NCBI RefSeq assembly: GCF_016808335.1
Contig: NC_053150.1
Coordinates: forward strand, 43,675,607 to 43,739,606
Length of the DNA: 64,000 nt
DNA from: Panicum virgatum
Taxonomy: Eukaryota > Streptophyta > Magnoliopsida > Poales > Poaceae
Direction of reading: 5' to 3'
How positions within the stretch are numbered: position 1 is the first letter of the stretch; each line of letters begins with the position of its first letter. Position numbers and translations under genes: made by a program. Of the stretch, positions 32,772 through 34,051 are shown piece after piece. Below the pieces are notes generated by a model, which was not told where the DNA came from, did no database searches, and worked only from the letters and a program-made list of their open reading frames with translations.

Positions 32772-32900
32772 ATCACGGAGTGACCGAGGAGGAACCCATC
32801 GATGAGCAGTACTGCGAGCAAGTGTGCGAGGAGCAATACCGCGAGCCGGAGCCCGAGAACGAGTACCGCGAGCAGGAACTCCCGGAAGGTTTCGAAGACG
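32772..32900 (+). CDS. Putative acidic exon of the LTR mini-ORF, element E
   Basis: A strong pyrimidine tract and GCGCCGTAG acceptor precede this 129-base (43-codon) open segment. It ends at a GC donor GACG|GCAAGTT. Both borders are phase 1. Glutamate dominates (EEEPIDEQYCEQVCEEQ, later EPEPENEYREQELPE). Base sequence is unrelated to the B/C/H exon but composition, phase and position match. Confidence 0.5.
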
Positions 32901-34013
32901 GCAAGTTCAATCTCATCCTTTGATGCATATTTTGTCCCAGTTTTATAAACACAACCTATTGGCCTGTTTTACAAAACTGCATTTGTTTTTACTGCTAAAA
33001 CCTGGTTGGATAGCCACCCCTTGATTTTTATAACCATTCCTTGATAACCTAGGTTTGTCTCTAAATATGATTTGCTCTGTTTGGATGATAAACCCTGCTA
33101 GAATGCTTAGGACCCGGTTACTCATTACACTTCAAAAATTATTACAAAGTGTTTTCGAAACAAAGAAAAGCGTGAGTACCAAAATAGGAAAAATGGGATT
33201 TTTGGGAAATAAAAAAAAGACATGCTTAGATGAGATGGATGGTGATTCCTATGTGGAACGCCAAATGGTGTGCTCGTACCTATGTGGTTGAGCAAGTTTG
33301 GGAGATGTTAATCTTGTCGCAGTTAAGGACCGAGTTGTTGTGACGTCTTGCCTAACCCGATCCATCGTGCAACCACTCGACCGTTGTATGTGGCAACAGC
33401 TTAGCATAAATCCCACTAGCTGGACTGTTTGTCATCAGGAGAGCTGAGAGCAACGGGTGGCCAAGGAAACGGGATAGGATCTTGGTGACTTATGCCCCGG
33501 TTAGTCCTCGTTGGTAGGGTAACCCCTTGGTGGAGTCCGTGTTGGCTAGCCAAGCTCAGCTAAGGTGGGTAATGGCTTTGTTGGGATCCGCACCGGCACC
33601 AAGGTGATCGTGCTGTGGTACCCCACTTATGGGTAAAGTGTACAACATCTGCAGAGTATAAAACCTATTCGAATAGCCGTGCTCACGGTATTGAGCGGGT
33701 TATGGTTTGGTCATAGAACTAGCATTTCTTCTGGGGATGGTTGGGATGGCGTGAGTTGTTTTTGAAAAGTGTCCGGCAGCAGTGCCATGTGCTACGACGG
33801 ATGAGAAGTCCGGTAGCAACTTTTGAAATTCTTGGATCCTGTGAGAATCAACCACACTCTGTTACTTGGCTATTATAAAAATTGCTTTACCGCAAATTAA
33901 CCGATAGCCTTTTCCTTGATTAATCCTATGCATGAAATCTGTGTTATCCCCCTCCGTGAGTGGGGTTGGACTTGCTGAGTACATTTGTACTCACCCTTGC
34001 TTAATTTTTACAG

Positions 34014-34051
34014 AGGAAGATCTAGAATTTATTCCCGAGGACGTTGAGTAG
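34014..34051 (+). CDS. Putative last exon of the LTR mini-ORF, element E
   Basis: After TTAATTTTTACAG the phase-compatible frame reads EDLEFIPEDVE then TAG (34049-34051). The intron would be 32901-34013 (1113 bp, GC-AG). The perfect hairpin GAGTACA-TT-TGTACTC at 33976-33992 lies about 20 bases before the acceptor region. Confidence 0.48.

Follow-up and report, generated by a model that had tools for sequence, protein, structure and literature searches.

A putative spliced acidic mini-gene inside the long terminal repeats of gypsy elements of Panicum virgatum

Can the long terminal repeats (LTRs) of plant retrotransposons carry a small gene of their own? The question is raised by a stretch of 64,000 nucleotides of Panicum virgatum (RefSeq assembly GCF_016808335.1, contig NC_053150.1, positions 43,675,607 to 43,739,606 of the forward strand), referred to here as the window. 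A sequence-only reading of the window had reported that the LTRs of at least six gypsy elements contain an open segment of acidic composition, bounded by splice-like sites and followed about 1 kb later by a second segment in the needed frame that ends in a stop. On re-checking the sequence, the coordinates of the first segments, their lengths (144, 90, 90, 90, 129 and 72 bases), their phase 1 at both ends and the second segments with their terminal stops have all proved exact. The six elements are present as well, and they amount to four LTR families, the elements then called B, C and H being one. The families are labelled here by the length of the first segment, referred to as exon 2, as G (144 bases), A/B/H (90), E (129) and F (72). 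At a threshold of E 1e-10, the LTRs of E share one 75-base DNA match with those of A/B, and those of G share none. The mini-gene is thus represented by three independent cases at best. The positions of its parts are collected in Table 1.

Table 1. Positions in the window of the exons of the LTR mini-gene and of the associated signals.
Feature	Position	Strand	Remark
TATAAA upstream of E mini-gene	32039..32044	+	
E predicted exon 1	32070..32190	+	5' end guessed from TATA box
E exon 2 (129 nt, phase 1/1, acidic)	32772..32900	+	length a multiple of 3 in 36/40 rows
E intron 2, GC-AG	32901..34013	+	donor and acceptor counted across 40 rows
Hairpin H2 with self-complementary loop, intron 2 of E	33665..33676	+	also in A/B/H and F
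Hairpin H4 (GAGTAC..GTACTC), just 5' of exon 3 acceptor	33977..33992	+	E; also in A
E exon 3 to stop TAG	34014..34051	+	dN/dS 0.40
AATAAA downstream of E mini-gene	34240..34245	+	
A 5' LTR exon 2 (90 nt)	12828..12917	+	
A 5' LTR exon 3 to stop	13966..14021	+	
AATAAA in A LTR	14133		
A 3' LTR exon 2	21317..21406	+	
A 3' LTR exon 3	22455..22510	+	
B 5' LTR exon 2	7564..7653	+	
B 5' LTR exon 3	8699..8754	+	
B 3' LTR exon 3	23680..23735	+	matching exon 2 falls in deletion
H 5' LTR exon 2	55168..55257	+	
H 5' LTR exon 3	56299..56354	+	
H 3' LTR exon 2	63853..63942	+	donor GCATGT; window end precedes exon 3
G exon 2 (144 nt), GC donor	2486..2629	-	
G exon 3 to stop TGA	1474..1583	-	
F exon 2-like segment (72 nt), donor GTTCAC	35985..36056	-	coding support absent
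F exon 3-like segment	34791..34837	-	

The donor that follows exon 2 reads G/GCAAGT in A, B and E and G/GCAAGC in G, and the intron of these three families is therefore of the GC-AG type; a GT donor is found in the F family only. The GC donors did not feature in the sequence-only reading and are new in this analysis. They stand in an AG/GCAAGT-like context opposite an AG acceptor. The GC is retained in 23 of 24 rows of A, 31 of 40 rows of E and all 21 rows of G, and the splice sites are conserved and in phase in the copies of E, A and G. GC-AG introns are described as making up less than 1% of all introns in model organisms (PMC7072748). In the joined peptides, acidic residues (D+E) outnumber basic ones (K+R) by 24:2 in E, 14:2 in A, 18:1 in G and 14:0 in F.

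Copies of the LTRs have been taken from the 1.13 Gb genome of the host, with the best 40 candidates scored per search, and were considered along with the rows of the window. They comprise 39 of 41 other places for E (two short fragments were left out), 20 of 38 for A, giving 24 rows with the four of the window, 20 of 39 for G, giving 21 rows with the window copy, and 19 of 44 other rows for F, in which exon 3 was compared over its first 18 nt only. The 4712 (E), 4488 (A) and 7467 (G) places seen at first look in the genome are candidates and not counted copies. For the dN/dS, codon-position, gap and near-cognate-start counts of E a set of 31 rows was used, nine rows (L015, L020, L021, L024, L029, L032, L042, L044 and L046) being left out because exon 2, or the part with exon 1 and the donor, was unalignable; the count of intact models takes all 40 rows and accepts a GC or a GT donor. 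The dN/dS values of E are Jukes-Cantor corrected and those of A, F and G are uncorrected pN/pS ratios. Since sliding 75-base windows along the E LTR reach a dN/dS near 0.3 elsewhere by chance, the joined exons of E were compared with control windows of equal length, one for each starting position that lies outside exons 2 and 3. Counts of control windows are not probabilities, as the windows overlap and the copies are related.

The spliced frame of G consists of 83 codons and a stop, with STTLPDGTYELVPESESEQR among its predicted peptides. None of the 21 rows has it interrupted, the 20 further copies being 95-98% identical. The acceptor AG of exon 2 is present in all rows except one. The joined exons have a pN/pS of 0.20, and none of 641 intron windows is as low (minimum 0.22). 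Gaps are absent from the exons, and among the 14 found in the intron one is a multiple of 3.

In the E family exon 2 mostly measures 102 to 144 bases, yet all but four of the 40 rows have a length divisible by 3. Six of the seven gaps in this exon are likewise multiples of 3, as against 62 of 286 elsewhere in the LTR, exon 1 included (31 rows, counting gaps of at most 60 bases). Within exon 3 there is no run of gaps, two of 31 rows being shortened at an edge. Over the 31 rows the joined exons have a dN/dS of 0.373, with 0.37 for exon 2, 0.40 for exon 3 and 0.70-0.80 for the introns; among 2150 control windows the minimum is 0.403. Changes fall on codon positions 1, 2 and 3 in proportions of 24, 30 and 47%. 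The donor is GC in 31 rows, AC in seven, GT in one and TG in one, and the acceptor is AG in 35 of the 40. Of the 40 rows, 25 have an open joined frame and 15 a broken one, and the entire model is intact in only 18. Conservation over 60 bases is highest in the E LTR at 32922-32982, in the first part of intron 2 past the GC donor, where identity reaches 0.95 and exceeds that of exon 2.

In A the frame is open in 23 of 24 rows, and there is no gap in the exons; intron 2 has 16 gaps, one of them a multiple of 3. The joined pN/pS of 0.39 is unexceptional taken alone, being matched by 108 of 895 intron windows, none of which has as few stops as the joined exons. The caution that differences within the 90-base family are mostly nonsynonymous is borne out by the exon 2 of A and B, which differ by eight nonsynonymous codons and one synonymous codon. 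The F segments are not supported as a coding case: their joined pN/pS is 0.60, a value that 351 of 1048 intron windows equal or undercut, and the frame is not a multiple of 3 in four of 20 rows and contains a stop in one more.

In-phase exons bounded by GC and AG sites therefore show constraint of the coding type in E and G, while in A they are open. Purifying selection on the joined frame is seen in E and G and not in F. The suggestion that the LTR transcripts encode, or once encoded, a small acidic protein stands for E and G on the frame constraint in their copies, is less firmly supported in A and falls for F. On the sequence evidence we lean towards the view that a small acidic accessory protein is translated, from the joined frame of three families, out of a spliced RNA promoted by the LTR.

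The sequence-only reading had offered a conserved leader exon as an alternative. Exons 2 and 3 could be purine-rich splicing-enhancer exons of a non-coding leader, in which splicing would clear ATG-rich introns for ribosomes heading to the ATG of gag or of an upstream ORF, the open frame being a by-product of a composition rich in GAG, GAA and CAG. The ATG counts of A suit such a leader: its introns contain 11 and 12, while exon 1, exon 2 and the part from exon 3 up to AATAAA have none. So does the acceptor-like AG that directly precedes the gag ATG of A and the ORF upstream of gag in E. The exons of E, however, carry 1, 1 and 6 ATGs over the same three parts, exon 1 of H holds three, and composition leaves unexplained the third-position bias in a single frame, the gaps in threes and the pN/pS of 0.20 across the two exons of G. 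A leader made of exons 2 and 3 is thus disfavoured and we consider it unlikely; for exon 1, with its lack of coding signal, the description fits.

The predicted exon 1 of E leads to a GT donor at 32191 that is kept in 0.83 of 36 rows. Its dN/dS in the needed frame is 0.81 and five of its 23 gaps are multiples of 3, so that it is not coding-like. A TATA motif lies upstream of the E mini-gene in 32 of 37 rows; E and F have a strict TATAAA in the expected position, and A, G and H do not. As the sequence-only reading had cautioned, no convincing ATG is found for the frame. There is no conserved ATG in exon 1 of E or in the unspliced sequence before its exon 2. Six of the 31 E rows have an in-frame ATG through exon 1, the place of which mostly varies from row to row, and the E copy of the window has a stop in the needed frame of exon 1. 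A near-cognate start in this exon has been considered and found unconvincing, the commonest candidate being a GTG that lies 11 codons ahead of the donor and is present in 16 of the 31 rows.

Protein searches spanning 5.8 billion sequences returned 46 matches of the E type and 263 of the A type, 120 of the latter listed. The printed database ORFs of both types mostly read through into the intron, and 93 among the 120 A-type matches listed read MCSW ahead of exon 2. These ORFs would suit an unspliced short frame that starts at an ATG just upstream of exon 2 and continues into the intron, but the database set had passed a gene finder that selects for a start. In this genome all 24 A-type rows carry a TGA in that frame immediately before exon 2 (window position 12809-12827). 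The E copy of the window has no in-frame ATG in the unspliced lead-in, and the seven of 40 E rows that have one differ in its place. The separate constraint on exon 3 in E and G likewise speaks against a frame of this kind, which we regard as very improbable.

The missing ATG, together with a coding signal that starts at exon 2, would also be accounted for if the exons of the 3' LTR were joined from an upstream gag or gag-pol exon that supplies the start, giving a C-terminal tail; one such product would be a Gag that skips pol and ends in an acidic extension. Phase-1 donor-like sites are indeed present. In E they are TTG/GTGAGT at 28172, at the gag-protease boundary, and ATG/GTAAAG at 30745, in the integrase; their scores, taken from an approximate matrix, are 6.2 in E and the E-type element L048 and 2.0 in L049, also of the E type, for the first and 6.8, 6.8 and 8.2 in E, L048 and L049 for the second. 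Both could join exon 2 of the 3' LTR in frame. In A the site is CAG/GTATGC at 16411, also found in H, and element B is without most of pol from the 16411-like site onward. The sites nevertheless differ between the families, E reading GGAATG where A has its donor-like site, and each of them falls on a glycine codon within a coding motif that may account for the GT. We consider such a tail fairly unlikely.

Element B is split by the insertion of A. In its part at 22777-22993 the site equivalent to 16410 joins the end of pol directly and most of pol is missing; either a deletion may be the cause, or the element may have been copied from a spliced RNA. An intron-like segment of about 105 bases (CAG/GTAATC ... 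TTCAG) in the gag of H at 57704-57808 is exactly missing from A (15360-15363). The gag ATG of A, at 14840-14852, directly follows ...CAAATCAG, an acceptor-like end. In E an ORF upstream of gag (25785-26389) has its ATG right after an acceptor-like TTTTCAG and a stop at 26129-26131, and the end of another ORF lies upstream of it in E and L048. The Pfam scan of pol covered A and E; it gives the order PR-RT-RH-INT in A and the same order in two ORFs in E, with no Chromo match in either at E 0.001, only SH3_Tf2-1. The order is that of Ty3/gypsy Tekay (Del) chromoviruses, a lineage for which a chromodomain would be expected too. The window also contains a 385-codon ORF at 49849-51006 with matches to DUF4218 and DUF4216.

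Traces of splicing have been looked for in the genome and in the databases. No intronless copy of the exon 2-3 junction of A is found in the genome at up to 3 mismatches, and the junction motif is present in none of the 46 E-type database proteins and in none of the 120 listed among the 263 A-type matches. This absence fits the copying of unspliced RNA only, and equally no splicing at all.

A block of intron 2 is common to E, A, B, H and F. It covers about 75 bases in E (33625-33698), with 81-83% identity between E and A/B, is recognisable in F and contains three short palindromes. Hairpin H2 in this block is a 4-bp stem-loop that reads CTAT-TCGA-ATAG in E, CTGG-TATA-CTAG in A, B and H and CTAT-ACGT-ATAG in F. 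Across 41 rows, 37 of them of the E type, the full stem is kept in 37 and the self-complementary loop in 34. Hairpin H4 has a version in G, GAGTAT..ATACTC at 1630-1615. Judged from these letters, the intron hairpins appear to keep their pairing despite the changes, in a comparison that has few cross-family sequences behind it. A third hairpin in the shared block has no self-complementary loop in 39 of 41 rows. As RNAalifold preferred another local helix in the block, the hairpins were counted by motif. The dimer sites of retroviruses provide a model for a role of such hairpins in dimerisation, and possible functions of those described here are dimerisation or packaging signals.

The reading that we prefer, an acidic protein made from a spliced LTR transcript, would proceed as follows. 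Transcription would start inside the LTR, a short and apparently non-coding exon 1 would be spliced to exon 2, the weak GC donor would then link exon 2 to exon 3, and the RNA would end at the poly(A) signal of the same LTR. The weak donor would leave much of the RNA unspliced. This unspliced form is proposed to be the genomic RNA because it retains the intron with the conserved hairpins, and new LTRs would retain the intron because the genomic RNA does. Translation would begin at a non-AUG codon near the end of exon 1 or in an upstream coding exon. A wider proposal, which we make tentatively and hold to be doubtful as a whole, is that the LTR is a complete small gene, containing two or three exons and a regulated GC-AG intron between its promoter and its poly(A) signal. 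Every solo LTR would then be a potential source of the protein. The intron would act as a switch resembling Rev/RRE, with spliced RNA giving the protein from a non-AUG start and unspliced RNA retaining the dimerisation hairpins and serving as the genome, and such genes would form a widespread and overlooked class in elements with long LTRs.

If the mini-gene is real, a numerous class of plant LTRs carries a gene that would escape any annotation in which LTRs count purely as regulatory sequence. The gene would account for some of the unusual length of these repeats and provide a plant parallel to the accessory proteins of retroviruses, and the split of RNA between translation and packaging would become testable in such elements. 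A protein encoded in the LTR, as proposed here, is known from an animal retrovirus, MMTV, in the form of its superantigen. A search of the open-access literature gave no title or abstract start that describes an LTR-internal gene in plants, which is not proof of absence in print.

Additional ORFs (aORFs) of plant LTR retrotransposons are described as encoding an extra protein without known function that is kept in most copies of a family (PMC7264820). As presented there, they lie in the internal region, whereas the mini-gene lies in the LTR; in A its exons sit in both LTRs, and an internal aORF would be expected between them. ORF0 of Retrosat2 is reported as an extra ORF in grass elements with long LTRs (PMC3485330), and E likewise has an ORF upstream of gag. 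By that description ORF0 is internal and upstream of gag-pol and is distinct from the LTR frame.

Partial splicing that separates the translated from the genomic RNA, as proposed here, has been described for BARE1, EVADE and Ogre (PMC3735527, PMC12786077, PMC6317226). The introns reported for them are situated inside gag-pol or between its parts, unlike the intron of the mini-gene, which is in the LTR. In Cer1 of C. elegans, the accessory protein CERV is reported to be produced through a spliced gypsy RNA while the unspliced RNA serves as the genome, as in the model suggested for the mini-gene (PMC10309623). CERV differs from the predicted acidic peptides in that, according to that report, it is a protein of 517 aa, internal in the element, with exons shared with gag, and has been demonstrated experimentally. 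Among the systems compared, Cer1 CERV is the closest functional model for the LTR mini-gene.
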